From positions 1 through 62,215 of the IMG/VR virus record IMGVR_UViG_3300020051_001561: 62,215 nucleotides of DNA; one strand, 5' to 3'. The notes beneath the pieces are model-generated. The model saw only the letters and a list, made by a program, of their open reading frames with translations, had not been told where the DNA came from and did not search any database. The stretch is from a virus. Position numbers and translations under genes: made by a program. Of this stretch, positions 1-42,196 are shown piece by piece. Numbering within the stretch: the first letter of the stretch is position 1; each line of letters begins with the position of its first letter.

Positions 1-1643
1 GTACCTCTAACAACTTCAACCTTCATTGGGTCGGTATTAGTAACCTTTGCAACATTAACAGGAATGATGGCACTTGGTACTACACCTGAGCCTGAACCCG
101 AACCTGAATTAGAACCACCTAAACCAGATACATTCGCAAGGGCATTTCTAGCTCTACTTCTAGCATTTGTCAAATCAGCACTCAAATCAGCTTTGGCAAT
201 TTTTGCATATGCATTAACCGCGGCACCATAGAAAGCATCACCAATCCCATCAACACCACTGGTTGCAAAATGTTCAAATACACTTGTAAATCCCTCCACA
301 CCTTCTTTGAATATTGTATCTACCGTACCAAATACTTTTATCATATTTTTCTCGTTTATAACACTACCTATAACCTTACTTATTTCTGTTGCCGCAGATA
401 AAGTAGTTTCCTCAATTTTTCCATATTTAGCAGAACCAGCAATCTCAGCTGAAACTCTCCTTGCTGGTTCTTCTAATGTTTTTTGGATTACTTCTAATAC
501 AGTCAATTGTTCTTTAGCAACATCTAAGGCTGACATATTTGCAGTCTCCGAACGTTCTCTAAGTTCCTTTATTTGGTCTTTTGTTAAGTCCGTTGCAGAA
601 ACTAATTCAGTAAACTTTTTACCATCTTCGTCCTCACGCTGGAAAGTAAATTTTAACTCACCACCATCGAACTGACCGATATTTGCCAACATTTCTTTGG
701 TCTCATCATCATAACCACCTAAAATATCTAATTGAGATAACGCTTCTTGACGTTGTGCAGATTTGACTGCAGTATTGGCTAACTCCTCATAATCCATACC
801 AAGAGCGTTTGCTTGAGCCCTTAACCTTCTCATTTCAGTGGCAGATATGGCAAAGTCACCCGTTTCAGAATTAAATGATACCGCAGCACTCGCAGCATTT
901 ACAATAGACTCTTGAAGACCATCGATGTCATTTTGAGCCATGTTCATTAATTGGAACGGGTCTGCTAATGCACCAACAGCTCCACCCAACATTTGGAACT
1001 CAGCAGCTAAATTAATAGCCTCAGAAGGGTCAAGTAATTTACCCGCTAAACTTGTAACATCAGCCATGTTAATTCTCAAAGCTTGAGAACGAGCAACCAT
1101 ATTAGTAAATCCTTCAACACCATTCCTAAAATTATAAGAGTTGATGAGTTTTACATTATCTCCAACAGTTTTCAAGAATTGACCGGTATTTAGACCTAAA
1201 GACGCTGCTCTTTTACGTGCACTTTCAATTTGTTCGGCGGCTTGTGTTGGACCAACACCAATTGAATCAAAACCTTCAACAAGTGTAGCCATTTCTTCAG
1301 CAGTAAGATTTGTGGCCTTTTGTATTGCGATAAAATCAGTTAACTGTTTATTAGTCAAAGTAACATTTCTTTGCATAATACTACCAATCGCAGCCATCTG
1401 TACCCCAACTTCAGTTGCACTAACACCTAACGCCGTAAGGTCTTTTACTGATTGTGAAATAGTCTTTTGCATTTCTTGGGACGCTTTAGCTCCCTGACCA
1501 AAAACATCCGCAGTTACTGACTTAGCAGCACTGTCAAATTCAAAAATCGCCGAACGTAGTTCTTTAGTATATTGAATGGCACTACTAATCGCGTCATTCA
1601 AATCTTTAGGACCACCACCACCACTGTTATCTTGTAAAAACAT
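1..1643 (-). CDS. Tail tape measure protein, N-terminal part (cut by window edge)
   Basis: Reading the minus strand from ATG at 1643 gives an open frame that runs off the left edge (about 547 codons visible). The translation is Ala/Gln/Glu-rich and mostly helical, with phrases such as ALADPFQLMNMAQNDIDGL and ATEMRRLRAQANALGMDYEEL. These are typical of phage tape measure proteins, which set tail length inside the tube. A Gly/Ser-rich stretch (GGSNSGSGSGSG) occurs near the visible end. It lies directly downstream of the gp26/gp51-like pair, the usual place for a tape measure in contractile phages. A TATTTATA motif sits 15 nt before the start. The T4 equivalent would be gp29, but the visible sequence looks more like long tape measures of other myoviruses. 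Family call is by composition and position, not by a diagnostic motif. Confidence 0.75.
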   Translation of the reverse strand, partial: MFLQDNSGGGGPKDLNDAISSAIQYTKELRSAIFEFDSAAKSVTADVFGQGAKASQEMQKTISQSVKDLTALGVSATEVGVQMAAIGSIMQRNVTLTNKQLTDFIAIQKATNLTAEEMATLVEGFDSIGVGPTQAAEQIESARKRAASLGLNTGQFLKTVGDNVKLINSYNFRNGVEGFTNMVARSQALRINMADVTSLAGKLLDPSEAINLAAEFQMLGGAVGALADPFQLMNMAQNDIDGLQESIVNAASAAVSFNSETGDFAISATEMRRLRAQANALGMDYEELANTAVKSAQRQEALSQLDILGGYDDETKEMLANIGQFDGGELKFTFQREDEDGKKFTELVSATDLTKDQIKELRERSETANMSALDVAKEQLTVLEVIQKTLEEPARRVSAEIAGSAKYGKIEETTLSAATEISKVIGSVINEKNMIKVFGTVDTIFKEGVEGFTSVFEHFATSGVDGIGDAFYGAAVNAYAKIAKADLSADLTNARSRARNALANVSGLGGSNSGSGSGSGVVPSAIIPVNVAKVTNTDPMKVEVVRG

Positions 1644-1668: not shown

Positions 1669-1821
1669 TTAACGTGAACTTTGTCTACGTTTCTCGTTCA
1701 ACTTTTCCATATCATCAATATACTTTTTGATAAAATACTTCCTTTCGAACGTAGGCATTTTAAGAAGGTCAGAATAGGAGAACCCCAATTCTTTGACACA
1801 ATAATAAAACTCATCAAGCAT
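1669..1821 (-). CDS. Small tail-assembly protein, gp51-like / chaperone GT-like
   Basis: The 50-codon frame starts at ATG 1821 and reads MLDEFYYCVKELGFSYSDLL, followed by a basic helical part containing MPTFERKYFIKKYIDDMEKL. The pattern MP-x(3)-R-x-(Y/F)-F-I resembles small T4-like gp51 (baseplate hub assembly) proteins. The reading frame stays open well upstream of ATG 1821 and overlaps the end of the gp26-like gene in the +1 frame. It could therefore be made partly as a frameshift extension of that protein (see the slip site at 1849-1855). It sits between gp26-like and tape measure genes, exactly where many phages encode a G/GT frameshift pair. Function is inferred from position and a short motif. 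Confidence 0.6.
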   Translation of the reverse strand: MLDEFYYCVKELGFSYSDLLKMPTFERKYFIKKYIDDMEKLNEKRRQSSR

Positions 1822-1834
1822 AGCTTGACGGTAA

Positions 1835-2584
1835 TCAGAAGAAAGGACGAAAAAACTCCGCCCCGAAGGCGATACGAGTCGACACCTTTTCTCCTGACGG
1901 GGCTACAAAAACACGGTCCAAATCTAACTTCGGTTCCGCACCTTCCATTGTGTTTCTAATATACTTAGAATCTGCAATCGGAAGATTGACAATAGTTGAT
2001 GATATATCAGCCGGGTCCTTAGAACCATCAAACTCGACAATCATTTTTTCTAATCTCTTAGTAACCACAGGAGCAACCATACCATCAGGGTATGCGTCTC
2101 TCATCTTTTGAAGGTCTTGAATATCTCTTTGATTTAAGATACGACACTTAACCATTTTTTGACTAACAGGTAACATTAACTCAAATAAACCTTCACCGTT
2201 TGGTTCAATAGTTGTCGGTTTAACATTTAACTCATCCAATAAAATACTTTGTTCAAAGTCCTTCATTGTTTTAGGGTCACGAAGATTGAATGTGTATTCA
2301 GGACCGAATGAAGAGTTTCTTAAGAAAATAAGTATTGCCTCAACATCACACTCCAACAATTCCATTGGGTCAAAACCAGGCTCATAAATTTTATTTCTTA
2401 ATAAAGTCATAATGATGTTGTCACCATTTCTTTGACCCAACAAAGTATTTTCATCCTGAGCTGTTAAATAACCTACTTTAATTGAGGACTTCCCACTTTT
2501 ATAGTACTTACCCTTCGAAGGTAATTGTACCACGTCATGAGGTAGGTTGAAGTCTTGTTGTCCGTATTGTGCTGCGTTGTCCAT
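1835..2584 (-). CDS. Baseplate hub protein, gp26-like (T4_baseplate family)
   Basis: The protein has 249 aa. The N-terminal region LPSKGKYYKSGKSSIKVGYL followed by TAQDENTLL matches the conserved start of T4-like gp26 proteins (LPS-K-G-x-x-Y ... L-T-x-x-E). The C-terminus GAEFFRPFF resembles the FFxP ending of that family. T4 gp26 (208 aa) belongs to the central hub of the baseplate. The start is ATG 2584, with a hairpin and a weaker CATTTATA motif upstream at 2633-2640. The gene ends 13 nt before the ATG of the gp51-like frame, and the two frames overlap if frameshifting occurs. In phages outside T4 the same position is held by the tape-measure chaperone gpG, so a chaperone role is an alternative. 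Confidence 0.65.
   Translation of the reverse strand: MDNAAQYGQQDFNLPHDVVQLPSKGKYYKSGKSSIKVGYLTAQDENTLLGQRNGDNIIMTLLRNKIYEPGFDPMELLECDVEAILIFLRNSSFGPEYTFNLRDPKTMKDFEQSILLDELNVKPTTIEPNGEGLFELMLPVSQKMVKCRILNQRDIQDLQKMRDAYPDGMVAPVVTKRLEKMIVEFDGSKDPADISSTIVNLPIADSKYIRNTMEGAEPKLDLDRVFVAPSGEKVSTRIAFGAEFFRPFF
1849..1855 (-). other. Candidate programmed +1 frameshift site
   Basis: The coding strand near the 3' end of the gp26-like gene reads GAG TTT TTT CGT CCT TTC TTC TGA. Re-pairing of Phe-tRNA from UUU to UUC at TTTTTTC moves the ribosome +1 into a frame that is open through the gp51-like ORF. The fusion would be about 304 aa. The downstream frame has no stop before its own ATG. A sequencing indel or simple overlap of two genes is also possible. 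Confidence 0.4.
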
Positions 2585-2665: not shown

Positions 2666-3154
2666 TTAGTAAACTAAAATACATCTATCAGGACGTAATG
2701 TCGCCGTGATAGTTGCAATACCATCATCACCATAACCAAGTGAATCAAAGTTCACGTCAGTTAGGAATGTTCCTTGTAAAATCCACTTTTCTACTGCCAC
2801 ACCTGTTGGGTCTAACATTTCCAAGTTGATATTTTTCTTATAACCTGCAGCGTATCCCATACGACCAGTTACAGATTCAGCGTGTAAACGAACCCACTCC
2901 ATTAACGCTTGAGAAGCTGAAGGACCGATTGGGTCACGGAATGTTACGTTTAGTGTGTTCCAAGTAAATCTACCTGCAACATATGTTGAAGTATTCAAGA
3001 ATGGAACTTCAACAGAATTGATTGATACTTGTGGACGTGAAGTTGACTCCACATACCAAGAGTTGATACCCAATGAAGAATCAAAGGTCATGATGAACCT
3101 ATTTTTTCTTTTTGGTTCATAAGGTATCGGCATTTTCATTAATAAATCAGCCAT
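2666..3154 (-). CDS. gp19: Tail tube protein, gp19-like
   Basis: The protein has 162 aa, the same size as T4 gp19 (163 aa). It has the layout of phage tube proteins: an N-terminal strand with RKNRFIMTF, then SRPQVSINSVEVPFLNT, then TWNTLNVTFRDPIGPSASQA, then MLDPTGVAVEKWILQGTF. T4-like tubes share the order basic RxxRF, SxP, 'lNvTFRDp' and WxLxGxF. It polymerises into the inner tail tube. A terminator follows and a TATTTATA motif lies 35 nt before ATG 3154. The neighbouring sheath gene supports the call, but here a HAD enzyme gene separates the two. Confidence 0.9.
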   Translation of the reverse strand: MADLLMKMPIPYEPKRKNRFIMTFDSSLGINSWYVESTSRPQVSINSVEVPFLNTSTYVAGRFTWNTLNVTFRDPIGPSASQALMEWVRLHAESVTGRMGYAAGYKKNINLEMLDPTGVAVEKWILQGTFLTDVNFDSLGYGDDGIATITATLRPDRCILVY

Positions 3155-17488: not shown

Positions 17489-20400
17489 TTATAATGCTTG
17501 TGGTACAAAGTCGTAACCAATCGATATGTTGTTATTACCAAGTGTAAATGATTCTGAATCACTTGCCGGAGTTAAACCACTATTCGCTGAAATTGATGAA
17601 ACCTCTTGTCCCAATACAGAACCCGCACCTTGTGTTTCTGCGTATATCTGACATCCTGAACCTAATACACCTTGAGATTCAACGTAGTAAAGGATTGTAT
17701 CACCTGGGAACGCTTGGATTGAATCCGTAGAGTCATTTCCACTACCTGTTGCTGTGTATGAAGATTGTAACACTCCATTCACGTAAATAGCTGCCGAACC
17801 TCTAGCACATGTTGCACTTGTGTAGTTAATACTAATCGTTTTTGGTGATACCGATGTCGACGGTGTTACCGTTGGTGTCTTAGTTGGTGTTCTTGTAGGT
17901 GTTCTCGTTGGTGTTGGTGACGCAGTCAATGAAATTGTTGGTGTAACTGTTGGTGTTCTCGTTGGTGTTGGTGACGGAGTTGGTGTTGGTAATGCACAGA
18001 ATGAACATGTCGTACCAAATACGTCGATTGAGTATGTTGGAGGTTCAGGTGATTCATCAAAACCAATAATTTGCCAACAAGGAGCCACATCACCACCTTT
18101 AGATGATAATGATACGTAGTCACCAACCGATGGTACTGCTGGTAAACCAGGAGCTAAGTCGGCGATTGCTTGTGTCGCACCAGGTTGACAGTTACCATCA
18201 AAGTAAGTTATCTCCTGAATTAGGAATTTATATTCAACACATGGATATGTTTGTACACAACTACTACATCTAGGGAATAATGGGTCATTAGCTGACCATG
18301 GTTGTCCTCCATCAGCTAACCAATCACCGTCTTTATTTCCTAAGTCACGGAACTCACCACCTGTATATGATGGACCGATAAATCCAACACAACCGTCAAT
18401 ATAACCTGTTTGGTTTTCTAAGTATAATGATGGATTACCTTCCTCAAGTGAATTCATAATTGATGTGTATTCAGGTCCGTTCAATCCAATTTTGTAAACG
18501 TAACTATCACAACATGCTGAGAAGTACATTGAGTAGTATACCGTTGATGGTGTTACTGAAGGAGTAACAGACGGAGTAACACTAATAGATGGTGTTATCG
18601 TCGGCTGAGGAGTTTGTGTTGCCTGTGGAGTGTTAGAAGGTGTAACCGTTTGTGTAGGTGCTGGTGTTTGTGTTGCCTGTGCCGTTGGAGTAACTGTTGA
18701 ACTTGCCGTAGGTGCTGGTGTTGATGTCGGTGCTGGTGTACCTGTTGGTTCAGGTGTTGAAGTAGGTGCTGGTGTTGATGTCGGTTGAGGTGTTGACGTA
18801 GGTGTTACACTTGCAGTTTGTGTAGGAGTATTAGTTGGTGTCTCAGTTGGTGTTGGAGTAACAGACGATGTTGGAGTTACACTTGCAGTCGGAGTAGGAC
18901 TCGATGTTGGTGTATTAGTTGGAGTATATGTCGGTGACGGTGTCACTGAACTTGTAGGTGTTACCGTTGATGTTGGAGTGTTACTTGGTGTTACTGTGTT
19001 AGTAGGTGTTGGTGACTGAGTAGGTGTGTTTGTCGGTGTTCTTGATAGAGAAACCGTTGGAGTCACTGTACTTGTTGAAGTAACGGTTGGAGTAACTGTT
19101 GGTGTTACTGATGACGTTACTGAAGGCGTTGGTGTGTTTGTAGGTGTCTTCGTAGGAGTAACTGTTGGAGTTACTGAAGAAGTTACCGTAGATGTAATAG
19201 TTGCTGTCGGTGTCAACGTAGCTTGTGGTGTCGTTGAAGGTGTTACCGATTGAGTTGGTGTTTGTGTTGGTGTGTTTGATGCAGTAATTGTAGGAGTTAC
19301 AGAAGGTGTAACTGATATTGTTGGTGTTACCGTTGATGTTGTAGTAGGTGTAAATGATACTGTTGGAGTAGGTGTTGTACTTACCCCTGGCGTTTGAGAT
19401 ACCGATGCGGTTACTGATGGTGTCGGAGTGAATGTTACTGACGCAGTTACTGAAGGTGTAGGTGTCTTTGTAGGTGTAGGTGTTTTTGTTGTTGTTGGTG
19501 TGGCAGTTGTTGTAGACTGTGGAGTTGCCGTCGGTGTTGGAGTTGTAGTGGACTGTGGTGTTTGTGTAGGAGTAACTGTAGTTGTAACAGTTGACGTAGG
19601 TGTAGGTGTTGAAGTACCACCAGGTGTTTGAGTCGGTGTACTCGTTGATGTAGATGCTGGTGTTGATGAAGGCGTAACCGAACTTGTAGGTGTCGGAGTC
19701 GACGTTCCTGCAGGTGTACTGCTCGGAGTGACTGATGATGTTATTGTTGGTGTAAATGATATTGTTGGTGTTGGTGTAGCACTTGAACCTGGCGTATTTG
19801 ATACTGAAACTGTTGGAGTTACAGTCGGTGACGGAGTTGCGGTCACTGATTGAGTTGGAGTATTTGTAGGTGTAGACTCTGGAGTCGATGTTGGTTGTGC
19901 AGTTCCTGTTGGTGTTGGAGTTGCAGTACCACCTGGAGTTCCTGTTGGAGTACTTGTATGTGTTGGTTCTGGTGTTGATGAAGGAGTAACCGAACTTGTT
20001 GGTGTTGGAGTTGCCGTACCACCTGGTGTTCCTGTCGGTGTACTTGTAGATGTTGGGTCTGGTGTTACAGATACACTCGCAGTGACTGACGGTGTTGGTG
20101 TTACCGTACCACCTGGAGTCTGTGTAGGTGTATTTGTTGGTGTTGCAGTTGCCGTGTTAGACGGTGTAACTGAACTACTTGGCGTATTTGTTGGGGTAAC
20201 ATCAGGTGTAGTTGAAATAGTTGGTGTTGGTGTGTTACTAACACCTGGTGTATCAGAAACTGAAACTGAAGGTGTTGGAGTACTTGTTGTTGTTGATGTT
20301 GGAGTAGATGCTGGTGTACCTGTTGGTGTAGGTGTGGATGTTGTCTGTGGAGTACTTGTAGGTGTTTGTGTCGGCGTAGATGTTGAAGTAGATTGAGGTG

Positions 20401-21031
20401 TACTTGTTGGAGTTGCCGTTGTAGACGCAGTCGGTGTTACTGTTGATTGTGGTGTACCTGTTGGCGTACTTGTTGAAGTGGCTTGAGGTGTTGATGTTGG
20501 TGATGCTGTAACTGTTGCCGTTGGAGTTACTGTAGATTGAGGAGTTCCCGTTGGTGTACTTGTGTGTGTTGGTTCTGGAGTTGAAGTAACAGTTGCCGTG
20601 ATAGTTGCTGTTGGTGTTGACGTGGCTTGTGGTGTACTTGTTGGTGTTCTTGTTGGAGAAACCGTCTGAGTAATTGTTGCGGTCATCGTAGGTGTTACCG
20701 TAGATGTTATCGTTGCAGTGATAGATGGAGTCACCGAAGGTGTTACTGATGGAGTAACTGATGCCGTCACAGAAGGAGTTAACGTAACCGTAGGTGTAAC
20801 TGTTTGTGTTTGTGTCGGAGTAGGTGTTGGGTGACCAATCACATAAGTGTAAGACGCTTCGTATGTTTCAGAATAGATTGTATAAGTTCCGTAAAAGTAG
20901 TCAGTAACTAAATCCGCAGGCATAGTAACAACACCAAAGTCCGTTACAGTAGAACCTGTGTCTGCAGTAAAAGTAATGTGAACACTTTCACCTACTAAAT
21001 TGTCACTCAAAAATCTAATTCCGTTTGCCAT
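17489..21031 (-). CDS. Giant Thr/Pro-rich fibre protein 1 (1180 aa)
   Basis: Residues 1-67 form a beta-like head domain ([20 protein letters not shown]). Residues about 68-828 are an almost pure Thr/Pro/Ser/Val repeat (TPTxTPxxT, VTPSVT). Then come a Cys-rich domain (about 829-1017, with [12 protein letters not shown] and CSFC), a short TP linker and a C-terminal domain (about 1066-1180, starting [20 protein letters not shown]). It looks like a stalk with a terminal receptor-binding knob. The repeat resembles mucin or extensin stalks rich in Ser/Thr for O-glycans. It has TATTTATA 4 nt before its ATG. No known family over the repeat; fibre role is inferred from neighbours. Confidence 0.7.
18545..20830 (-). 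repeat. Thr/Pro low-complexity tract in fibre 1
   Basis: The plus strand is G/T-rich with recurring GTTGGTGTTAC-type units; the minus strand encodes about 760 residues of TP-type repeats. Units are imperfect but share a 6-residue-like period. It is prone to slippage and recombination. Confidence 0.85.
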
Positions 21032-21035
21032 TACA

Positions 21036-21043
21036 TATAAATA
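21036..21043 (-). promoter_or_regulatory. TATTTATA motif 4 nt from fibre 1 start
   Basis: TATTTATA then TGTA then ATG 21031. Confidence 0.5.
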
Positions 21044-21079
21044 CTTTACAATATTAATTTGTTAGTTAAAAAAATAAAC

Positions 21080-21532
21080 TTACCAAGAAGTTTCTATATT
21101 AATTCTTCTCCAAGAATTTTGTGATATACACACATACATGTATGAATCATCAAAAACTACATCTCCCTTATTACCTTCAGAAGTTGAGGATGTTGGTACT
21201 GAGGCGTTTTTTATCTCCATACTGTCATCAACATTAGTTTCACTAATTGTTTTGTTACCAATATGTATTGTGTTACTTCCTAAATATAAATCTCTAAATT
21301 TATATTCTGCACTACCCAAATCGTATGTATCATTTGTTGTTGGAATTATATGTCCTGTTAAATTAAATTGTGACCCATCAGCTTGTAATGATGTTGAACC
21401 TGAGAAAATTTTTGTTAATAATTCTGCGTATGTTATTTTTTTGGCGTTATTACCATCATGAATAATAATTAAATCAGTACTTTGTGGTGTACCTGTAAAT
21501 GATGTTAATTGTTCTATCGTTAAATTAGCCAT
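21080..21532 (-). CDS. Short tail/head fibre protein
   Basis: The protein has 150 aa. The centre GHIIPTTNDTYDLGSAEYKF continues with RDLYLGSNTIHIG, the T4-like fibre repeat (P..d.tYDLGs...~fr~lyl...tI.iG). The N-terminus LTIEQLTSFTGTP and the QNSWRRINIETSW end suit a trimeric short fibre. It is encoded between two giant fibre genes with TATTTATA 13 nt upstream. It may cap or join fibres. Confidence 0.65.
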   Translation of the reverse strand: MANLTIEQLTSFTGTPQSTDLIIIHDGNNAKKITYAELLTKIFSGSTSLQADGSQFNLTGHIIPTTNDTYDLGSAEYKFRDLYLGSNTIHIGNKTISETNVDDSMEIKNASVPTSSTSEGNKGDVVFDDSYMYVCISQNSWRRINIETSW

Positions 21533-21545
21533 TTCTTTTTTATTT

Positions 21546-21553
21546 TATAAATA
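21546..21553 (-). promoter_or_regulatory. TATTTATA late-promoter-like motif, short fibre gene
   Basis: TATTTATA 13 nt before ATG 21532. Confidence 0.55.
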
Positions 21554-21571
21554 GTTTATCTTATGAGAATA

Positions 21572-24500
21572 TTATGGGTAAGGGTTGGTAGCATTAAAGT
21601 TGTTTAATACTTGTAATGATGTTAATGCGGTATTGTATAATCTAATAATACCGTATTCACCTCTAAAGTCTCCAGTGTTATCAGCACCAGGATTCTGTTG
21701 ACCGAAGAAGATATTATTATCAACACCACTTGATAAGTATGAAACACCATTCTGACTATCATTCAATACACCATCGATGTATAGACTTTGTGTTGCGTTT
21801 GCAAAATCCCAAACCAATACCACTTGATACCACTGACCTTGGTTGAATGGTGTCGTTGAGTATAAGTAATTATTCGCCCAAATCTTACCTCTAAATCTGC
21901 CAGTTTCAGCAGCTATCGGTGGCATGTTCCAATTATTTTGTGGGTTAGTCTCTGACATTGACATGATGTTACCATCTACATCATCAGGTTTAATCCATAA
22001 CTCATATGTAAATGATTGGGTGGCATTACCAGTACCTGCAACATTACTTAATAAAATGTAATCATCGATACCGTCTGTAACTATAGACTTATCCGTAGAG
22101 TTATATGTCGGTCCATTAACTAAAGTACCATTATAGTTACCCTGTAAATCCGTCCACAGAGTACCTGTTCCTGGATATGAACTTGTATTTCTCGCATCTA
22201 AATTAACTAATAAATTAGATGTAATAATATTATTCGGTGTTGATGAAGGAGTCACAGTTGGTTGTGGTGTTTCAGTTACTGTTGGAGTTGGTGTCACATC
22301 CGCAGTTGATGATGGCGTTACTGAAACTGTAATAGATGGTGTTGGTGTTACCGGTGATGATGATGATGGTGTAACTGTCGGTGTTACAGTCGCAGTTGAG
22401 GTTGGTGTTGGTGAGGGAACTGGCCCTGTAGACATCACTATAAAGTCATTGTCATCAGTAATAATATAGTTACCTAAATCATCAACCAATACATTTTGTT
22501 GTACAGGCGTATTAGATGGTGTTATCGATGGAGTAACACTACTCGTCGGTGTGTATGTTGGAGTTGTTGTTGGTGTAGGAGTATTAGACGCGGTGACTGT
22601 AGGTGTTGGTGTTACATATGGTAACGGTGATAATGAATATCTTTCGTAATAAGTGTTATAGAATGTTGTGATTTCTGAATCTGTTAATGCTCTATCATAA
22701 ATGGCCACGATACCCATATTACCATCAAAGAATTGGTCAGCAGTCCAGTTACTATCTGCAATTAAGTTGTTTGTTCTCGTTAAGTTATTTGGTAATACAC
22801 TTGTTGAACCTGATACCGATGTTGTTTGATTAAACACTTTGAATGTTGAACCATCGAGACGACCACCATAGAATCCCCAACCATTATTTGTTATACCATT
22901 AGTTATGTTTTCTGCTAATACTTGAGTGGCCCCATGACGAAGTTCAAACCACAAGTTATTAGTTGACGATTCTCTACCTAAAAGAATATTATCACTTGCA
23001 CTACCATTACCAAAATCAATAATTCTTTCCCAAGTAGACACTCCGTTGAAATTAATGAAGGTTAATATTGTAATACCATTACTAAAGTTATCAAATCCTG
23101 AAGGAGCAGTACCATATTGTGATGTACCATTAAATGTTACAATACCACCGTTGGATGATGATACCGTTGGAGAGTTATATAAGGTAACATCATTTCCAGA
23201 ACCACTGGTATCTGTCCATGTAGTCGATGTTGCATTTGCACCATCAAGTAATAATATTGGTGAACCTACAACCGATGTAGGTGACGGTGTTGGTGTCAAT
23301 GTAGGTGTTGGAGTGGCTGAATTAGCAAATGGTGTTGCCGTGAAGTCCATTGTCGGAGCTGGTGTATCAGTCGGAGTAATTGACTGAGTAACCGTAGGTG
23401 TTACAGTTGATTCAGGTGTAACTGAAGGTGTAACTGATTGAGTCAATGTTGGAGTTACAGTGGCAGTTTTAGTAACCGTAGGTGTGTTAGTTGGAGTATT
23501 AGACGGTGTTAATGTCTGAGTAACAGAAGGACTCACCGTTTGTGTTGGCGTGTTTGTATTTGTCACAGTTGGAGTAACAGTAGAAGTAACTGAAGGTGTA
23601 ACTGTGTTAGTTGGTGTATTAGATGGTGTTAATGTTTGAGTAACAGAAGGACTCACCGTTTGTGTCGGTGTGTTCGTAGGAGTAACTGTTGGAGTACTCG
23701 TAGATGAAGATGTTGGTGTTATAGTATTTGTTGGAGTAATAGTTGCTGTAACTGTCGGAGTCACTGTACTTGTCGGAGTAGAAGTAGGACTTGATGGTGG
23801 AGTTACTGATACTGAAATACTTGGTGTGTTTGTTGGTGTATAGGTAGGAGTTACCGTTGATGTTACAGTTGGAGTTACTGATGCAGTCACTGATGGTGTC
23901 AATGTTGGTGTAGTTGACGGAGATACAGTCTGAGTTGGCGTGTTTGTATTTGTCACTGTAGGAGTAACGGTAGAGGTAACCGAAGGAGTTACAGTTTGAG
24001 TTGGAGTATTAGTTGGTGTCAATGTTGGTGTTACCGAAGCAGTAACAGATGCGGTCGGAGTATTTGTATTCGTAACCGTTGGTGTAACTGTAGATGTTAC
24101 CGATGGTGTTACCGTACTTGTTGGTGTATTAGTAGGGGTTACGGAAGAAGTAACAGTTGCTGTTACCGTTTGTGTCGGTGTGTTTGTTGCGGTTACCGTT
24201 GGCGTTACAGACGCAGTAACCGAAGGAGTTACAGTCTGAGTCGGAGTATTGGTTTGTGTAATAGTTGGAGTAATAGAAGCAGTCACAGTTTGTGTCGGAG
24301 TATTGGTTGCGGTTACCGTTGGTGTTACAGATGCAGTAACCGAAGGAGTTACAGTCTGAGTTGGCGTATTAGTTGGTGTTACTGTCGGAGTTACAGAAGC
24401 CGTCACAGTTTGTGTCGGTGTATTAGTTGCCGTCACAGTTGGAGTTACCGATGCGGTTACCGAAGGAGTCGGAGTTTGTGTATTTGATGGTGTTACGGTT

Positions 24501-26188
24501 TGTGTCTGAGTATTAGATGGAGTAACAGTCTGAGTTGGAGTATTTGTTGGAGTGACACTTGGTGTTGGTGTATTTGTGGCAGTATATGTTGGAGTTGCCG
24601 TACCTGTCGGAGTTTTCGTCAATGTAATTGTTGGTTGTGGTGTATTAGATGGGGTTATGGTAGGAGTGGCAAATGGTGTTGCGGTAATGTCACTTGTTGG
24701 GGCCGGCGTATCTGATGGTGTTGCAAATGGTGTTGCCGTCACATCGTTAGTTGGTGCTGGTGTATTTGAAACTGATGGAGTCACAGTACCAATAGGAGTT
24801 GCAGTAATATCAACAGTAGGTGCCGGTGTGTCAGTCGGTTGAGGCGTATTAGTAGGAGTAACCGTTGGAGTGGCAAATGGAGTTGCCGTAATGTCACTTG
24901 TTGGAGCTGGTGTGTCTGACGGAGTCGCAAATGGAGTTGCCGTAATATCTACAGTCGGTGATGGAGTATCTGTTTGTGTTAATGTCGGAGTGAATGTTGG
25001 GGTTGGCGTTGGAGATGCACCCGCAGTCAAACTTGGAGTTATAGTTGGTTGAGGGGTATTTGTGGCAGTTGGTGTAACTTCACTTGTTGGTGTAGGTGTT
25101 TGAGTTGAAGTAATACTTGGGGTAACACTTGGTGTTGAAGTGTTTGTAGGTGTTGATGTTGGTGACAACAATGGAGTACCTGAAGGACTTGCCGTTGGTG
25201 TAACCGTTGAAGTTACAGTTGGCGTTGCCGTTGACGTTGGAGTCTTAGTTGGTGTACTCGTAGATGTTAATGTAGGTTGTGGTGTTGATGTTGGAGATTC
25301 ACTTGGTGTTATAGTTGGAGTTACAGTATTCGATGGAGTAACCGTTGGGGTTACAGATGAACTAACTGAAGGTGTAACTGATGGAGTTACACTCATAGTT
25401 GGTGTTGGACTAGATGTCGGAGTTACAGAAATAGATGGTGTAACCGTAGGTGTCGGAGTTGGACTCGATGTTGGAGTTGGTGTTAATGTTGTATCAAACA
25501 CAAACTTAGGTTCAACAACATATCTAAAGTCTTTAGAAACGGTATTAGTATCAACTTTAATGTTTCTATAGTAAACCTCGCCTGTAACTAAGTCATATCT
25601 TCTATTAACTTCAAGTAATCTTTGACCTGTTTTCTCACCCTTAGGGATTGTAATCAATACCTTATTTTCAATATTGTTACCATCAGACATCTCAATCACA
25701 TTATCAAACGTGATTTCAACATCGGCATCAACAGGTAATTCCGCAGTTGCAGTGTATAATGAGATAACTGAACCACTCGTATAATCGGCAGTCAACGAAA
25801 TAAAGTTAGTTCTCTTATTTCTACGACAACACATGTCAACATCTGCAAATGAATCCGCAATACTAATAAAGAGGTTACTTTCTAAAGGAACCTTAGAAGT
25901 ACCTTGACTATTCTTTATTGTAAAGAATCCATGAAATCTACCCTGTTTTTTTGTATTTCTTTTTGAGAATTGGTACGAAAGTATATAACCTGAACCGTCT
26001 TCTTTTAACTTAATAGATGCGGGTAGGTTGGCTATTTTATACATTCCCGTCTCAACATCATACATCGAGAAAGTTACCGTAGATGCAGAAATAAGTGGGT
26101 CGAGTTGGTTGTAACCGTTCCTCGACTCATTAATAACCTCTACTTGTAGTTTAGGTAATGTACTATTTTTCTTTATAAAAAACTCCAC
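21572..26188 (-). CDS. Giant Thr/Pro-rich fibre protein 2 (1538 aa) with two lectin-like domains
   Basis: Starts at GTG 26188. Residues 1-~115 are BppU-like and paralogous to the 17064 gene. About 121-232 are a further beta domain. About 233-972 are TP repeats, some with DITATPFATP units. About 973-1190 and 1317-1538 are two concanavalin/LamG-like domains (PILLLDGANAT, LVNLDARNTSSYPGTGTLWT, GIVAIYDRALT, FTYELWIKPDD, GIIRLYNTALT). They are joined by another TP linker carrying NVLVDDLGNYIITDDNDF. The order anchor, stalk, lectin, linker, lectin suggests a baseplate-attached adhesion fibre that binds host glycans. The motif TATTTATA ends 4 nt before the start. Confidence 0.75.
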   Translation of the reverse strand: MEFFIKKNSTLPKLQVEVINESRNGYNQLDPLISASTVTFSMYDVETGMYKIANLPASIKLKEDGSGYILSYQFSKRNTKKQGRFHGFFTIKNSQGTSKVPLESNLFISIADSFADVDMCCRRNKRTNFISLTADYTSGSVISLYTATAELPVDADVEITFDNVIEMSDGNNIENKVLITIPKGEKTGQRLLEVNRRYDLVTGEVYYRNIKVDTNTVSKDFRYVVEPKFVFDTTLTPTPTSSPTPTPTVTPSISVTPTSSPTPTMSVTPSVTPSVSSSVTPTVTPSNTVTPTITPSESPTSTPQPTLTSTSTPTKTPTSTATPTVTSTVTPTASPSGTPLLSPTSTPTNTSTPSVTPSITSTQTPTPTSEVTPTATNTPQPTITPSLTAGASPTPTPTFTPTLTQTDTPSPTVDITATPFATPSDTPAPTSDITATPFATPTVTPTNTPQPTDTPAPTVDITATPIGTVTPSVSNTPAPTNDVTATPFATPSDTPAPTSDITATPFATPTITPSNTPQPTITLTKTPTGTATPTYTATNTPTPSVTPTNTPTQTVTPSNTQTQTVTPSNTQTPTPSVTASVTPTVTATNTPTQTVTASVTPTVTPTNTPTQTVTPSVTASVTPTVTATNTPTQTVTASITPTITQTNTPTQTVTPSVTASVTPTVTATNTPTQTVTATVTSSVTPTNTPTSTVTPSVTSTVTPTVTNTNTPTASVTASVTPTLTPTNTPTQTVTPSVTSTVTPTVTNTNTPTQTVSPSTTPTLTPSVTASVTPTVTSTVTPTYTPTNTPSISVSVTPPSSPTSTPTSTVTPTVTATITPTNTITPTSSSTSTPTVTPTNTPTQTVSPSVTQTLTPSNTPTNTVTPSVTSTVTPTVTNTNTPTQTVSPSVTQTLTPSNTPTNTPTVTKTATVTPTLTQSVTPSVTPESTVTPTVTQSITPTDTPAPTMDFTATPFANSATPTPTLTPTPSPTSVVGSPILLLDGANATSTTWTDTSGSGNDVTLYNSPTVSSSNGGIVTFNGTSQYGTAPSGFDNFSNGITILTFINFNGVSTWERIIDFGNGSASDNILLGRESSTNNLWFELRHGATQVLAENITNGITNNGWGFYGGRLDGSTFKVFNQTTSVSGSTSVLPNNLTRTNNLIADSNWTADQFFDGNMGIVAIYDRALTDSEITTFYNTYYERYSLSPLPYVTPTPTVTASNTPTPTTTPTYTPTSSVTPSITPSNTPVQQNVLVDDLGNYIITDDNDFIVMSTGPVPSPTPTSTATVTPTVTPSSSSPVTPTPSITVSVTPSSTADVTPTPTVTETPQPTVTPSSTPNNIITSNLLVNLDARNTSSYPGTGTLWTDLQGNYNGTLVNGPTYNSTDKSIVTDGIDDYILLSNVAGTGNATQSFTYELWIKPDDVDGNIMSMSETNPQNNWNMPPIAAETGRFRGKIWANNYLYSTTPFNQGQWYQVVLVWDFANATQSLYIDGVLNDSQNGVSYLSSGVDNNIFFGQQNPGADNTGDFRGEYGIIRLYNTALTSLQVLNNFNATNPYP
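23272..25493 (-). repeat. Thr/Pro low-complexity tract in fibre 2
   Basis: About 740 residues of TP-type repeat. Near-duplicate units such as [15 protein letters not shown] occur in tandem in 23990-24500, showing recent internal duplication. Confidence 0.85.
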
Positions 26189-26192
26189 AGTC

Positions 26193-26200
26193 TATAAATA
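26193..26200 (-). promoter_or_regulatory. TATTTATA motif 4 nt from fibre 2 start
   Basis: TATTTATA then GACT then GTG 26188. The region up to FFIK is nearly identical to that of the 17064 gene, so gene and signal duplicated together. Confidence 0.5.
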
Positions 26201-26207
26201 CCAACTT

Positions 26208-29200
26208 TTATATTGTTATTGCCCATTTATTGGATAGATATGTTTCGACTGAGTTAAGTTCAGATGGAGGTAACGCCCTACTATAAACTAATACATCAAA
26301 AATAAATCCATTATAGAAATATTGTTCATTTCCTGATACTTGTGTAGTGTAAGACACACCCATAAATGCATATGTGGTAAGTGGACTGGTCTGAGTATCC
26401 ACAGGAGAAGTAAACGCTAAACCTTGTTCAACACCATCTATTCTAAATTTCAATCTTTCGGCATCATTGGAACCCGTACCACTATACACTACCGATAGTA
26501 TGTGTGGGTTTTCATCAACAGGTTGTCCACCTGACAACGCAAAACCACCGGCTTCTGCAATGTTATAGGTACCACCACTTTGTCTTATAAACAGAGAATT
26601 TAGACCTGTATTACCATCTTCACCACCCTGAATGTATTGTGAGTCCGCAGTTGGGTTTAATGACCTAACTACAATAACTAATGTTTGACCTGAAATACCT
26701 TGTAGGTCAGTAAGTGGATTAACACTTAAACCATCTGTTGTTCCATTAAAGTATACCCCACCTAAACCATTCTGAACATTTGACCACCATTCAGGTGCAG
26801 GTCCACTACCACCACCTATTGGATTGGCATTGTGTGCACTTGCAGATGAATCTTCCCATTGATTAAATGTATCCCCACTTGTTGGTGTTGGTGTGAAGTA
26901 AGTATCCAAATCACCTTGATAGTAAATCTCAAGTGTCGGGTCACTAGGAATGACCGCTTGTGTTGGTGACGGTGTTAAGGTTTGTGTGATTGTTGGTGTT
27001 ATAGTATTTGTAGGTGTGAATGATGGTGTTGGTGTTGGAGTAACGCTCGCAGTTATTGATGGTGTTGGAGTTGGAGGTGTAGGAGAACCACACTCAGAAC
27101 ATTCCACAAATGGACCTTCAGTCATTGTTAAATTTATATCACCTGTTGCCTCACCTATGACAAGATAACAATTACCACCATCATCCTTAATATAGTTACT
27201 AGAAACGGCACCGAGTGTATTCAATGCGTAGTAAATTGTACCAGCATCTATACTACATGTACTTAGATTCGTAACTTGTCTTAATTGGAATACAGAAGGG
27301 GCAACTTCTGATGGTGTCACTGTAGGTGTAACTGTTGGCGTTACGGATGAGGTAACTGATGGAGTTAAACTAATCGTTGGTGATGGTGTGACAGAAGAGG
27401 TAGGTGTGACAGTCAATGTTGGAGTGTTTGTTGAAGTAGCAACAGGTGTCCCTGTTGGTGTTGAACTAACAGTGGCAGTTGGGGTAACTGTAGAAGTTAC
27501 CGTTGGAGTATTAGTTGGTGTCGGAACAGGAGTTCTTGTTGGTGTTAAACTAATTGTTGGTGATGGAGTAACTGATGGGGTTACTGATGACGATGGGGTT
27601 ACAGTATTAGTTGGTTCAGGAGAACCTGTAGGGGTGTTAGATGGAGTGGCAGTAACTGTAGATTGTGGAGTACTTGTAGGTGTTGGTGTAGGTGATTCTG
27701 TTGATGTTATTGTTGGAGTCACAGTACTGGTTTGTGTATTTGTTGGTGTAACATCAGGAGTTGAAGATATTGTAGGAGTTGGTGTGGCACTTGACGGTGG
27801 AGTTGGAGTAACCGATGCAGTAACCGTATTCGTCATTGTAATTGTGGCAGTGATTGTTGGGGTAACTGTAGAAGTTACCGTTGGTGTGACTGTTGACTCA
27901 GGAGTCTGAGTCGGTGTTAATGTATTTGATGGAGTAACCGTCGCAGTATTGGTCTGTGTTATGGTAGGAGTAATTGAAGGTGTTGGAGTTGGTGTACTGG
28001 TTAGTGTCTGAGTAACTGTTTGTGTTGGTGTACTGGTCACTGTTTGAGTAGGTGTTTGAGACGGTGTAAGTGTCTGTGTAATCGTGGAGGTCATTGTTGG
28101 TGTTGGAGTCACTGATGATGTTACCGTTTGAGTAGGGGTATTGGTAGTTGTTACAGTTGGTGTAATAGATGTTGTCACCGAAGGAGTAACAGTTTGTGTC
28201 GGAGTAGTAGTTTGAGTTGGTAACGGTGTAGATGTAGGAGTTACCGATATTGTTGGAGTTGGTGATGGAGTAATAGACAACGCATTGAAGTCAGTATCAC
28301 AATCTGATGCCACTATATTAAAGTCTGACCTACATTCCACACTTGATAAATCAATACCAAATCCACAATCAACACCAACAGTCGTGAATCCAAATCCACA
28401 TGTTGATTCAACAACTGTAAATCCAAAGTCACAAGCAATGTCATTGGCAATAAAGTCAAACTCACAACTTTCAATATCGATACCAAAGTCGAAGTAACAT
28501 TGTGAAAGTATCTCCAAACAGTTTGGACACCAGAAGTCAAATAAATTATAAGTGTCTCTTTCAATTCTAAAGTTGTGTTGAACCTGTGGTGAACTTAATG
28601 GTTCAGTGTAAAATCTCATCTTTGAGATACCTCCCATAAATGTACCACCAAAGTTTGGCTCCATTTCAATATTTGTCTGTAACTCATTTAATGAAGTTGC
28701 AGATAAACTCTCATTTGGCATACACTCTGGGTCTTGAATATAAGGACCTTCAAACGCTGTACAACCACTTGGTATTAAAGACTCTCTTAAACCTTGTGTA
28801 CCTCCACCCCATGATATTGTATAAGGAACACCAATCTGTTTTTCCTTTTCAGTATTAAGTTCGTGAGGGATAATTTCCTCAAAATCTTCAATAATCATAA
28901 AGAGGTAACCATTCACATATAGTTTCAAAAGACCTCGTCTATCATCAACTTGATTCAACCATTTCTGAGTCCACTGTATTTCCGTTATCTTTTCATCATT
29001 AAGACCACCCGGCTGAATAAGGTTCGTGGAGACATCGTAAGTTGATGCGGTGTAGGTTTCTTTCCTAATATCACCTAATCCACCAACATTCAATAAATCA
29101 CAATCTTCTAAGTACCTATACCTTTCAAACACCGCCGAAATCATCAACCATCTTTCCTTTGTTCTTTCAGATTCGGCAATTGGATATCCACATGTGTCGT

Positions 29201-30428
29201 AGATACCTGCAGTTGAACATATTTCAGTGAAACAATACCCTGATGTATATGTTAAACCTGTGGTCTCACATGAACCCGTTGTAATACAGTCACCAGTATA
29301 TTTTACATATTTTACACATAGATGTGGGTTTTTAGGGTCACCGTCCAATCTAAGTGACATACCGTTTGATAAAATATCAAAACGAGGGTCTTGAGTTTCA
29401 CCTGTCCATTTTACATCACAACCTCTACACTCCAAACCGTTGTTTCGTGTTACGGTGGTTGCCGTTGTTGGATATATCTTCATACAATTAGAAGATGTAA
29501 CCCCCGTATCGGCACATGCACAAGTTTTGAAACAGTTAACCAAATCTTCAGTTACTCTTTTATATTTCTCAACTGTGGCACCACTGATGGTAACACCAAA
29601 GTCACAACCGAAGTCATTGTAAGTCTCAACATCTCCACTGGCAGGATGATAAAATTTGTTTTCAGCCCTTGTACCAAAGAAGAAGAACGTACCGGCATTA
29701 CCTGAATAAACATCGTTCAAATATTCTTGGTGGTCCATCAAAGTATACTCATCAACCTGACGTGGTTTGATAAGTGTTTCCATTGTCCAACCTTTATTAA
29801 CTCTCTCAGGGAAAACCTCATAATCATACCCATGAAGTTTGTAAAATCCTTGCATAAAACCACCATATAATTCTTGGTAATAACCCACAGAACTATCAGT
29901 TTTATTTACTATGTTGTATACCGTTTCTTTTGTATTACCTGAGAATCTATGGTTAGGTTGATTTGTAAATGAACCTACAGGGTGTAGTTTCATCCTTCTA
30001 TCATGGTATAATGGGTCGTGAGTTTTACTCGGAAAAAGACCCATTGAATAGTATAGAGTGTCGCCCGTAATCTTATTAAAAAGACCCACATCAATCATTG
30101 TAAGTCCCGCATCACAAAGTCCTGTGAATCCTGTATAACAAGATAAATCTTCATTATTTGGGTTATAGTAATTCGTTGAAGTTAACGTATTTCCTGTGTT
30201 TGAGGCATCCCAGTAAAGGTTTGGTTGAGTTGTGGTACCCGTATTGGTTAGGTCAAAATTAATAGGAAGACGGTTACCATCATTTAAGGCAATAACATCG
30301 GTTGAGAAGATTACCTCCTCATCATAATCACGTTCATCGGATGCTAAAGTGAGGTCAAAATACTCACTCGTATCCATTCTTACCTTGAACCTTTTGAAAT
30401 TATAATTATTGATGCTCTGACCTGCCAT
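26208..30428 (-). CDS. Giant fibre protein 3 (1406 aa) with Cys undecapeptide repeats and lectin-like domains
   Basis: Residues 1-~640 are a non-repetitive region with several Cys pairs and LamG-like phrases (GWTMETLIKPR, ISKMRFYTEPLSSPQVQHNF). Residues 644-720 are seven exact 11-residue repeats, each starting with Cys. TP repeats follow (about 721-1040). Then comes a Cys-containing insert, another TP linker, and a C-terminal concanavalin-like domain (about 1159-1406; SGQTLVIVVRS, IFDVLVYSRALPPSELNSVE). A large fibre or spike exposed on the virion is likely. TATTTATC lies 12 nt before ATG 30428. It is divergent from the gene at 30482. Confidence 0.7.
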   Translation of the reverse strand: MAGQSINNYNFKRFKVRMDTSEYFDLTLASDERDYDEEVIFSTDVIALNDGNRLPINFDLTNTGTTTQPNLYWDASNTGNTLTSTNYYNPNNEDLSCYTGFTGLCDAGLTMIDVGLFNKITGDTLYYSMGLFPSKTHDPLYHDRRMKLHPVGSFTNQPNHRFSGNTKETVYNIVNKTDSSVGYYQELYGGFMQGFYKLHGYDYEVFPERVNKGWTMETLIKPRQVDEYTLMDHQEYLNDVYSGNAGTFFFFGTRAENKFYHPASGDVETYNDFGCDFGVTISGATVEKYKRVTEDLVNCFKTCACADTGVTSSNCMKIYPTTATTVTRNNGLECRGCDVKWTGETQDPRFDILSNGMSLRLDGDPKNPHLCVKYVKYTGDCITTGSCETTGLTYTSGYCFTEICSTAGIYDTCGYPIAESERTKERWLMISAVFERYRYLEDCDLLNVGGLGDIRKETYTASTYDVSTNLIQPGGLNDEKITEIQWTQKWLNQVDDRRGLLKLYVNGYLFMIIEDFEEIIPHELNTEKEKQIGVPYTISWGGGTQGLRESLIPSGCTAFEGPYIQDPECMPNESLSATSLNELQTNIEMEPNFGGTFMGGISKMRFYTEPLSSPQVQHNFRIERDTYNLFDFWCPNCLEILSQCYFDFGIDIESCEFDFIANDIACDFGFTVVESTCGFGFTTVGVDCGFGIDLSSVECRSDFNIVASDCDTDFNALSITPSPTPTISVTPTSTPLPTQTTTPTQTVTPSVTTSITPTVTTTNTPTQTVTSSVTPTPTMTSTITQTLTPSQTPTQTVTSTPTQTVTQTLTSTPTPTPSITPTITQTNTATVTPSNTLTPTQTPESTVTPTVTSTVTPTITATITMTNTVTASVTPTPPSSATPTPTISSTPDVTPTNTQTSTVTPTITSTESPTPTPTSTPQSTVTATPSNTPTGSPEPTNTVTPSSSVTPSVTPSPTISLTPTRTPVPTPTNTPTVTSTVTPTATVSSTPTGTPVATSTNTPTLTVTPTSSVTPSPTISLTPSVTSSVTPTVTPTVTPSEVAPSVFQLRQVTNLSTCSIDAGTIYYALNTLGAVSSNYIKDDGGNCYLVIGEATGDINLTMTEGPFVECSECGSPTPPTPTPSITASVTPTPTPSFTPTNTITPTITQTLTPSPTQAVIPSDPTLEIYYQGDLDTYFTPTPTSGDTFNQWEDSSASAHNANPIGGGSGPAPEWWSNVQNGLGGVYFNGTTDGLSVNPLTDLQGISGQTLVIVVRSLNPTADSQYIQGGEDGNTGLNSLFIRQSGGTYNIAEAGGFALSGGQPVDENPHILSVVYSGTGSNDAERLKFRIDGVEQGLAFTSPVDTQTSPLTTYAFMGVSYTTQVSGNEQYFYNGFIFDVLVYSRALPPSELNSVETYLSNKWAITI
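27310..28268 (-). repeat. Thr/Pro low-complexity tract in fibre 3
   Basis: About 320 residues of TP-type repeat following the Cys repeats. A shorter one (TPTPSITASVTPTPTP) lies at about 26950-27080. Confidence 0.8.
28269..28499 (-). repeat. Seven tandem 33-bp units coding an 11-residue Cys repeat
   Basis: Units in order: CYFDFGIDIES, CEFDFIANDIA, CDFGFTVVEST, CGFGFTTVGVD, CGFGIDLSSVE, CRSDFNIVASD, CDTDFNALSIT. Cys is always residue 1 and hydrophobic residues recur at 3, 5 and later odd positions. There are no gaps. It directly follows FWCPNCLEILSQ. Confidence 0.9.
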
Positions 30429-32968: not shown

Positions 32969-34186
32969 ATGTCAAAGATAAAAGTATTAGTATTACCCTC
33001 CGACAGAACAGGTGTGGGTAAATTTCGTTCTGTTGAACCTCACATTTTCTTACAACAGGCAAAGCCTGAAGAATTTCACATAGATATTGATTATGAACCT
33101 AAGGTTAACGACCTGAATTATTGGAAACAATATAATATGGTTCATTTTCATAGGTCTATTGGTAGAGACCCTGTGGCTTCTGTTGAGTTAATTAAAAAAC
33201 TTAACGGAATGGGTATTGTAACCGTAATGGATTTGGACGATTATTGGTTACCAACTAAGGACCACCCTGCACATAATTTGGTAGTTCGAAATGAATTACA
33301 CAAAAGAATTATTGATAACTTAAGAGTTGCACAATATGTGACAACAACCACAACTATATTTGCTGAAGAGATTAAGAAGATTAACAAAAACGTTTTTATC
33401 TTACCTAACGCTATCAATCCCGATGAACCACAATTCAAAGCAGAAACACAACCGTCCGACAAATTAAGGTTTGGTTGGTTAGGTGGTTCTTCACACTTAG
33501 AAGACCTAAAACTTTTAGATGGTACTTTTGGTAAACTTAATAGTGTAAAAGATAAATACCGTCTTTATCTATGTGGTTTCGATATTCGTGGCAGTGTCAC
33601 AGAAATCAACCCACAAACAGGTGAGCAAAAACAAAGAACAATCAAACCACACGAAACTGTATGGTACAGTTATGAAAAGATTTTCACTAATAACTACAAA
33701 TTGGTAACTCCTGAACAAAAAGATTTCTTAGAAAAGTTCACACCAAATGAACCATACACATTAGAAGAAGACCCATTCTATACTCGTGTTTGGACGGAAC
33801 CTGTAACTTCATACGCTAAGAATTACTCTAACTTTGACGTTTCATTGGCACCACTTAAAAATCACATCTTTAATAGAGTTAAATCACAATTAAAAGTTAT
33901 TGAGGCAGGTTTTTACAAAAAGGCATTGATTGCATCAGATATTGGTCCTTACACCATCGACTTGAAACATTCATTACAAAATGGTAACTTTGTGGATGGA
34001 AACGCTTTGTTGGTTAAAGAAAATAGAAATCATTCTGATTGGTCTAAGTTTATGAAAAAACTTATCGATAACCCGTCATGGGCTGAAGATTTGGGTGAGA
34101 GACTATATGAAACCGTATCAAAGACTTACGACTTAAATATCGTTACTGAAACACGAGCACAAATTTATAAGGAGATTACAAAATGA
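32969..34186 (+). CDS. GT-B glycosyltransferase
   Basis: The protein has 405 aa. Features include VLVLPSDRTGVGKFRSVEPH, VVTVMDLDDYWLPTKDHPAH, FILPNAINPDE, RFGWLGGSSHLEDLKLL and the C-terminal SLAPLKNHIFNRVKSQLKVIE with EAGFYKKALIAS. This is the two-Rossmann GT-B layout (GT4-like). It probably transfers sugar from an NDP-sugar. It begins the sugar block; the next gene overlaps by 4 bp (ATGA). A candidate for decorating virion proteins; the acceptor is unknown. Confidence 0.75.
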   Translation: MSKIKVLVLPSDRTGVGKFRSVEPHIFLQQAKPEEFHIDIDYEPKVNDLNYWKQYNMVHFHRSIGRDPVASVELIKKLNGMGIVTVMDLDDYWLPTKDHPAHNLVVRNELHKRIIDNLRVAQYVTTTTTIFAEEIKKINKNVFILPNAINPDEPQFKAETQPSDKLRFGWLGGSSHLEDLKLLDGTFGKLNSVKDKYRLYLCGFDIRGSVTEINPQTGEQKQRTIKPHETVWYSYEKIFTNNYKLVTPEQKDFLEKFTPNEPYTLEEDPFYTRVWTEPVTSYAKNYSNFDVSLAPLKNHIFNRVKSQLKVIEAGFYKKALIASDIGPYTIDLKHSLQNGNFVDGNALLVKENRNHSDWSKFMKKLIDNPSWAEDLGERLYETVSKTYDLNIVTETRAQIYKEITK

Positions 34187-34884: not shown

Positions 34885-35483
34885 TGGGAAAATTTAAGGA
34901 TATGACAGAGGGTCTTAAAATGTTGAAAGACCTACAAAAGAATTTAGGTGGCATGAGTAGCATGACCGACCCACAAGAAATGTTGAGTTCATTAGGTTTG
35001 GATATGGACCAAATAAATGAACAGTTTATTCAACAAACCGCACCAAAAACAGTATTACGATACTCATACAAATCAGTAAACAAAGAACCTGAATACGCTT
35101 ACCCAACAGACTCAGGATTTGATTTAAGAGCCAATGAAAAAGTTACATTGGGTCCATTGGAAAGATACTTAGTACCGACAGGTCTATTCTTAGACATCCC
35201 TGAAGGTTACGAAGTTCAGGTTAGACCTAAGAGTGGCTTAGCAATCAAAAAAGGTTTATCTGTGGTAAACACACCAGGAACTGTAGACCAAGGGTACACA
35301 GGTGAAATTAAGGTTATTCTTATTAACCTCAGCAATGAAACACACACAATAGAAGTTGGTGATAAGATTGCTCAAGCAGTTTTAACTCCTGTAATGTCGG
35401 GTAAATATGTAAACCTACAAAGAGTCCTTAATGTCGACGATAAAGACCGTGGAGATAACGGTTTTGGTTCAACAGGAAACTAA
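34884..35483 (+). CDS. dut: dUTPase with N-terminal extension
   Basis: The protein has 199 aa against about 150 for a usual trimeric dUTPase. All five motifs are visible: DSGFDLRA, RPKSGLA, NTPGTVDQGYTGEIKV, GDKIAQAVL and RGDNGFGSTG. It removes dUTP to keep uracil out of DNA. The extra ~55 residues at the start (MGKFKDMTEGLKMLKDLQKN...) are Met/Leu-rich and helical, of unknown use. Start ATG overlaps the upstream stop (TAATG). Confidence 0.9.
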   Translation: MGKFKDMTEGLKMLKDLQKNLGGMSSMTDPQEMLSSLGLDMDQINEQFIQQTAPKTVLRYSYKSVNKEPEYAYPTDSGFDLRANEKVTLGPLERYLVPTGLFLDIPEGYEVQVRPKSGLAIKKGLSVVNTPGTVDQGYTGEIKVILINLSNETHTIEVGDKIAQAVLTPVMSGKYVNLQRVLNVDDKDRGDNGFGSTGN

Positions 35484-35484
35484 T

Positions 35485-42179: not shown

Positions 42180-42196
42180 CTTTTAAGAAAAATTTG

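Follow-up and report, generated by a model that had tools for sequence, protein, structure and literature searches.

Are the two overlapping reading frames near one end of a phage genome read as separate genes, or are they joined on the ribosome? The question is raised by positions 1669–2584 of a 62,215-nucleotide viral stretch (IMG/VR record IMGVR_UViG_3300020051_001561; the whole stretch is called the window below), in which a gene for a protein resembling T4 gp26 runs into an open reading frame (ORF) in the +1 frame. The first-pass annotation, made from the letters of the DNA, had proposed that a +1 frameshift joins the two frames, and conservation in 140 sequences supports the proposal. 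We conclude from these comparisons that the ribosome very probably undergoes a programmed +1 frameshift here, in a gene for a putative tail-assembly chaperone. Three features define the locus:

1835–2584, minus strand: gp26-like gene (PF12322) in the 0 frame, the predicted short chaperone form, 249 amino acids (aa), TGA stop at 1837–1835

1849–1855, minus strand: slip site TTT_TTT_C, in which the P-site TTT (1852–1850) would re-pair as TTC and the A-site codon is CGT (1849–1847)

1669–1848, minus strand: extension in the +1 frame (putative T-like domain), 59 aa past the slip, TAA stop at 1671–1669

The gp26-like frame of the window ends in GAG TTT TTT CGT CCT TTC TTC TGA. The heptamer TTTTTTC, singled out earlier as a place where UUU could slip to UUC, is indeed found near the end of the gene, at 1855–1849, and the +1 frame is free of stops from position 1902 down to the TAA at 1671–1669, which had been assigned to a gp51-like protein. 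Skipping one base at TTT_TTT_C would yield 245 + 59 = 304 aa, so that the junction falls exactly at residue 245, where it had been placed approximately. The gp26 half of the naming is supported by the Pfam T4_baseplate domain of the 0-frame product (27.3 bits, cut-off 24.5) and by its match to phrog_150 (baseplate hub; 5.7e-07), which covers profile positions 10–233 of 282.

Some 140 loci spanning the region were retrieved from IMG/VR by protein searches, and the window was analysed together with 139 relatives that are 54–100% identical (the window clade). In all 140 sequences the 0 frame ends in TTY GGG GNN GAR TTT TTT CGN (CCT or GTT) TTY TNY, within which the codons GGG GNN GAR TTT TTT CGN are invariant and in frame; the slip site TTT TTT CGN, whose conservation had been suggested as a check, is thus present in the window and in every one of the 139 relatives. 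The 0-frame stop follows the slip codon after 5 codons in most members, and the A-site CGN stands several codons before it. Past the slip, the +1 frame stays open for 48–63 aa, save in two contigs with an early end or break; open stretches in the −1 frame are short and differ between members. The kept extension has the consensus LSS..Y....LDE.YY......SY.D...MPT.ERKYFI.K, and its matches to DUF6760 and phrog_18291 are below threshold.

Codon choice at the slip site is fixed, whereas the synonymous entropy in conserved columns of the gene averages about 1.0 bit. Among 56 representatives (<80% nucleotide identity), Gly241 is GGG in 56/56, although GGG makes up 12% of glycine codons elsewhere in the gene and 5.5% in the window. 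Phe244 and Phe245 are likewise TTT in all 56, and Arg246 is always CGN, as against 16% of arginines elsewhere; CGG is absent from the 24 other window genes. The codons CCT TTC TTC are fixed because the +1 frame reads these bases within Leu-Ser-Ser. A search with the DNA pattern only returned the same layout in 80/80 loci, each with an open 0 frame ending 4–6 codons later, and the +1 frame is open for 47–62 aa in 78/78 complete loci. Judged by these sequences, the dual-frame layout of the window clade is not a product of chance.

Frame breaks beside homopolymers are a known artefact, and the present break adjoins such a run. However, the same break recurs, with the slip site conserved, in more than 300 independent contigs and in named phages; the relatives refute a sequencing or assembly indel that split one gene, and the probability left to it is negligible. 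The +1 ORF could also be an independent gene that has a start codon of its own and is reached by re-initiation or translational coupling past the gp26 stop. The window does have an in-frame ATG at codon 9 of the extension, and annotators have called truncated small genes at this position (SP15_046, WJZ48268.1, and immuto gp038). In many relatives, however, the +1 ORF has no ATG before codon 19, and 54 of 143 sequences offer none until codon 28 or 30, leaving about 20–30 aa, which makes independent initiation unlikely. Moreover, the conserved LSS residues precede any start, and both the slip codons and the hairpin described below are invariant. We consider a separate gene very improbable. As a practical point, the extension is missing or truncated in several deposited phage genomes.

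In the mechanism that we propose, most ribosomes would translate the gp26-like frame to its TGA and release the 249-aa short form (the equivalent of G in phage lambda). A fraction would pause with tRNA-Phe on the P-site UUU while the A site presents a CGN codon, which is rare in window-clade phages. For tRNA-Phe, UUC is a better pairing partner than UUU, and the tRNA would re-pair with the UUC one base on; translation in the +1 frame would then give the 304-aa form (the equivalent of GT), ending in a small helical C-terminal domain. The slippage itself and its efficiency are predicted from this arrangement. Influenza A PA-X and plant amalgaviruses shift to +1 at this UUU_CGN site, with the identical UUU-to-UUC re-pairing and CGN in the A site; these are eukaryotic RNA viruses, for which the available text of the source mentions no upstream hairpin (PMC5052127), whereas the window belongs to a DNA phage that would use bacterial ribosomes.

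Directly upstream of the slip site, the RNA can form a hairpin with two stems:

1860–1903, minus strand: RNA hairpin, with the outer stem 1903–1898/1865–1860 (GCCCCG/CGGGGC) and the inner stem 1888–1882/1872–1866

1889–1897, minus strand: 9-nucleotide bulge UCAGGAGAA between the stems, with AGGAG resembling a Shine–Dalgarno (SD) sequence; GGAGA is identical in 79/79 distinct sequences

Across the clade, the hairpin comprises an outer stem GCCCCG/YGGGGN and an inner stem of some 7 base pairs, with the 9-nucleotide bulge UCNGGAGAA between them and a loop of about 9 nucleotides. Its base ends 7 nucleotides 5' of the P-site UUU, and this spacing is constant. The codon block GCC CCG TCN GGA GAA, upstream of the GGGG block with which it pairs, is nearly invariant. 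Comparison establishes the hairpin as a conserved element in several ways. Over 79 distinct sequences, 93.7% of the cells in the hairpin are paired, a value reached by 0 of 500 shuffles, and sliding the partner by one column lowers the paired cells to below 60%. For the inner stem, the observed pairing of 0.888 compares with 0.829 ± 0.007 after synonymous shuffling within columns (0/2000). Parsimony on the tree of the upstream protein counts 21 compensatory double changes (11, 7, 2, and 1 at four pairs), and the middle pairs of the outer stem are unbroken throughout. RNAalifold recovers the outer stem only, the inner stem being backed by the pair counts and the tree parsimony. The divergent relative L226, with TTC TTT CGC as its slip site, also has the hairpin according to a covariance model (53.8 bits). 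Rfam has no family at the hairpin, and no downstream stimulator was seen, though no test was aimed at one.

The hairpin GCCCCG...YGGGGC would refold directly behind the advancing ribosome and so favour forward slippage, standing in for the internal SD duplex of the prfB type. On bacterial 70S ribosomes, a synthetic refolding upstream hairpin stimulates +1 shifting about 60% as strongly as an internal SD does (PMC6321510). The proposed signal resembles that of prfB (RF2) in the +1 direction, the P-site re-pairing and an upstream duplex so located that it can drive the ribosome onward, and differs from it in that a hairpin acts in place of, or besides, SD pairing. An SD-like sequence is found upstream of 4 of the 33 window genes, and 50% of the upstream bases are A, which suggests a host with SD-independent initiation, such as a member of the Bacteroidota; in such a host, a hairpin in place of SD pairing would make sense. 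The hairpin would seem to be a natural, deeply conserved upstream +1 signal with covariation; in the literature consulted, the hairpins studied so far are designed or attenuator ones.

The shift could be real and yet be stimulated by a classical internal SD as in prfB, either the GGAG before the slip site or the AGGAG of the bulge, with the hairpin secondary. The GGAG of the window ends 3 nucleotides short of the P codon, and the AGGAG in the bulge hardly varies; however, many relatives have NNGAA rather than GGAG, while the middle pairs of the outer stem always stay intact, and a phage whose own genes are almost without SD may have a host that does not rely on SD pairing. This makes the classical stimulator unlikely, though clearly less so than a separate gene. 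The bulge UCNGGAGAA is SD-like and nearly invariant although the genes of the phage show almost no SD use; pairing with 16S rRNA and a tertiary contact are two possible roles for it.

The overlap of frames extends beyond the window clade. Streptococcus phage GXN1, Bacillus phage SP-15 and Microcystis phage Mel-JY01 (26–30% identical) keep it, with the slip sites TTC TTT CGT, TTT TTT CAC and TTT TTT TGG, respectively. Another 167 loci were compared, and 156 of them have a +1 frame that crosses the 0-frame stop and is open over 30 aa or more, chiefly at TTT TTT TGG (110) or TTT TTT TAC (27). The other 11 are five contig ends, three loci read in the wrong frame (L171, L258, and L259) and three with the extension in the −1 frame: Agrobacterium phage Atu_ph07, Pseudomonas phage PA5oct and a 595-kb megaphage (L151, L152, and L149). 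These three indicate that the direction of the shift has switched in the course of evolution without loss of the fusion. In the UUU_U group, a perfect stem ends at −10 to −5 from the slip codon in 44 of 92 non-redundant sequences, compared with 19.9 ± 3.5 expected after synonymous shuffling, and such stems occur in 2–14% at other positions.

These relatives also bear on slippage of RNA polymerase on the T-run, by which some mRNAs would have one base fewer and the long form would arise by normal translation. The run comprises six T in the window and seven in the UUU_U group. However, GXN1, L226 and L155 have TTC TTT CGY, without a long T-run, and retain both the +1 ORF and an intact ribosomal slip site, which makes transcriptional slippage unlikely. 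In addition, every member of the window clade keeps the rare CGN, and the distance from the upstream hairpin to the slip codon is a constant 7 nucleotides. We give it as small a chance as a separate gene, and ribosomal frameshifting remains the preferred explanation.

A −1 version is found in cyanophage DSL-LC02 and Aeromonas phage phiAS5, where the gene ends in ...SDFFA* with T_TTT_TTC and an extension in the −1 frame; PA5oct and Atu_ph07 would likewise shift at U_UUU_UUC. Loci of the cyanophage type have T_TTT_TTC in 80/81, a stop no more than two or three codons past the slip in 81/81 and a complete −1 extension of 58–66 aa in 80/81; in this group there is no peak of stems at the position found in the UUU_U group. 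By eye, the extensions of all groups share an aromatic residue near Pro or Ser, then Glu-Arg or Arg, and then a helix. The earlier statement that +1 is unusual and −1 common is correct in general, but +1 is the rule in two large groups of the gp26 family. The first-pass annotation did not include the upstream hairpin with its covariation, the rarity of the A-site CGN codon, how deep the conservation goes, or the forms with −1 shifts or split genes among relatives. We note that the slip site T_TTT_TTC is unannotated in gp26 genes of the Kyanoviridae type (80/81; L319 2971–3866, L320 2935–3884, and L321–L400), and that two named records of this type have the region annotated only as a truncated small hypothetical gene.

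A review (PMC5009743) describes the G–T frameshift as widely conserved in long-tailed phages, with T4 as the exception. T4 gp26 ends in ...GLKEFFELL*, and T4 gp51 has a gp26-like body that reaches ...VFKLL and is followed by about 46 extra residues. Profile comparison links the window clade to the UUU_U clade (P 100) and to the cyanophage −1 fusions (P 93), and the UUU_U clade to the same fusions (P 98.5). The fusions in turn match T4 gp51 through the extension (P 99.0) and gp26 (P 98.7), the latter alignment ending at the FF slip position, and gp26 matches gp51 (P 98.9). The chain from the window clade over the UUU_U clade and the cyanophage fusions to gp51 aligns at full length. PHROG 150 covers gp51 to position 280 but gp26 only to 235; its positions 236–281 are matched by the −1 extension of the cyanophages. 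The stepwise links and this coverage therefore suggest that T4 gene 26 encodes the counterpart of the short form, and that gene 51, with the same body plus a C-terminal domain, encodes the counterpart of the long form, both made without frameshifting.

T4 gp26 and gp51, hub assembly chaperones, thus resemble the two predicted products of the window but, unlike them, come from two divergently transcribed paralogous genes. Well-separated frames, named in advance as evidence against a shift, occur nowhere inside the window clade; they do occur in T4 and its relatives, which have separate genes 26 and 51. On balance we favour the view that contractile tails of the T4 type do have a G/GT system, hitherto missing, in the T4 gp26/gp51 superfamily, the two forms being made by +1 shifting, by −1 shifting or from two genes, and that the +1 lineages, in SD-poor phages, use a refolding hairpin that replaces the SD duplex. 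If true, this would be a testable answer for T4, with gp26 and gp51 as its short and long tail chaperones. No description of a gp26/gp51 frameshift was found in the open-access literature, a search that did not cover subscription journals and preprints. In Enterobacter phage EC-F2 (L318 1501–2794), a gp51-like gene is directly followed by a gp26-like gene on one strand, whereas T4 genes 26 and 51 diverge.

Gene order and fold bear on the proposed chaperone pair. The neighbours are as follows:

2666–3154, minus strand: gp19-like tail tube gene, directly upstream of the gp26-like gene (phrog_4542, 1.3e-29)

3–1643, minus strand: presumed tape measure ORF, placed by position and truncated at the window end; its counterpart in relative L007 has 589 aa

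From this comparison of sequences, we infer that the 249-aa and 304-aa products form a tail-assembly chaperone pair of the lambda G/GT type. As in lambda (and its HK97 and P2 equivalents), short and frameshift-extended forms would come from one gene, located between the genes for the tail tube and, here presumably, the tape measure, and the extension is predicted to be helical. The differences from lambda are the shift direction (+1 instead of −1), the signals, the contractile T4-type tail, and a body of the T4 gp26 family (PF12322), usually named baseplate hub. The earlier placement of a chaperone pair directly before the tape measure is supported by conservation, with the tape measure presumed from position. 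Forward shifts in tail chaperones or phages have already been proposed for the haloarchaeal myovirus HSTV-2 and among actinophages (PMC5009743, PMC10885494); such a hairpin is not mentioned in the available parts of these sources.

The fusion was modelled for relative L095, in which the slip codon is CGG (pLDDT 84, pTM 0.78), with extension helices at 250–265, 269–274 and 277–304 (pLDDT ~90); the window 0-frame product was modelled separately by AF2 (pLDDT 89). Among solved structures, the HK97 tail assembly chaperone (2ob9_B) is the first match in one comparison (Z 5.5, 94 aligned) and, in the other, the second (Z 5.4, 95 aligned) after an uncharacterised Bacillus protein (3fgx, Z 6.6); the rows below the HK97 match have Z of 3.8 or lower in both. 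This weak fold match hints at the family that the genetics predicts. Matches in BFVD are T4-like baseplate hub and hub-assembly proteins. Foldseek against the PDB gave nothing significant, and a profile search of PDB sequences gave no match.

Several observations weigh against the interpretation given here. The case for a frameshift rests on comparison. The window hairpin taken alone folds modestly better than shuffles (z −1.84, not exceptional), and the case for the hairpin therefore also rests on comparison; SP-15, GXN1 and Mel-JY01 are without a hairpin of the window type. Compared directly, the profiles of the window clade and of gp51 give no significant match, and neither does hhalign of the clade against single T4 gp51 or gp26, so that the gp51 half of the naming holds via the intermediate families and the stepwise chain alone. 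Structural matches with Z below 8, such as that to HK97, may be coincidental or reflect a common arrangement. The presumed tape measure is named by position, and because its counterpart is annotated as tape measure in Listeria phage LIS04 and Flavobacterium phage immuto; no model recognised it in family searches.

Megablast against phages gave 0 matches, and a search of genome contigs with query A1 gave 0 confirmed relatives. Elsewhere in the window, positions 17489–30428 hold three giant ORFs (1180–1538 aa) with long Thr/Pro/Ser repeats of the TPT type and seemingly lectin-like segments, probably fibre or surface proteins. Positions 32969–45651 hold a run of sugar-modification genes (glycosyltransferase-, UDP-sugar dehydrogenase- and epimerase-like), adjoined by dUTPase-like and PhoH-like ORFs, all judged by eye from the translations.
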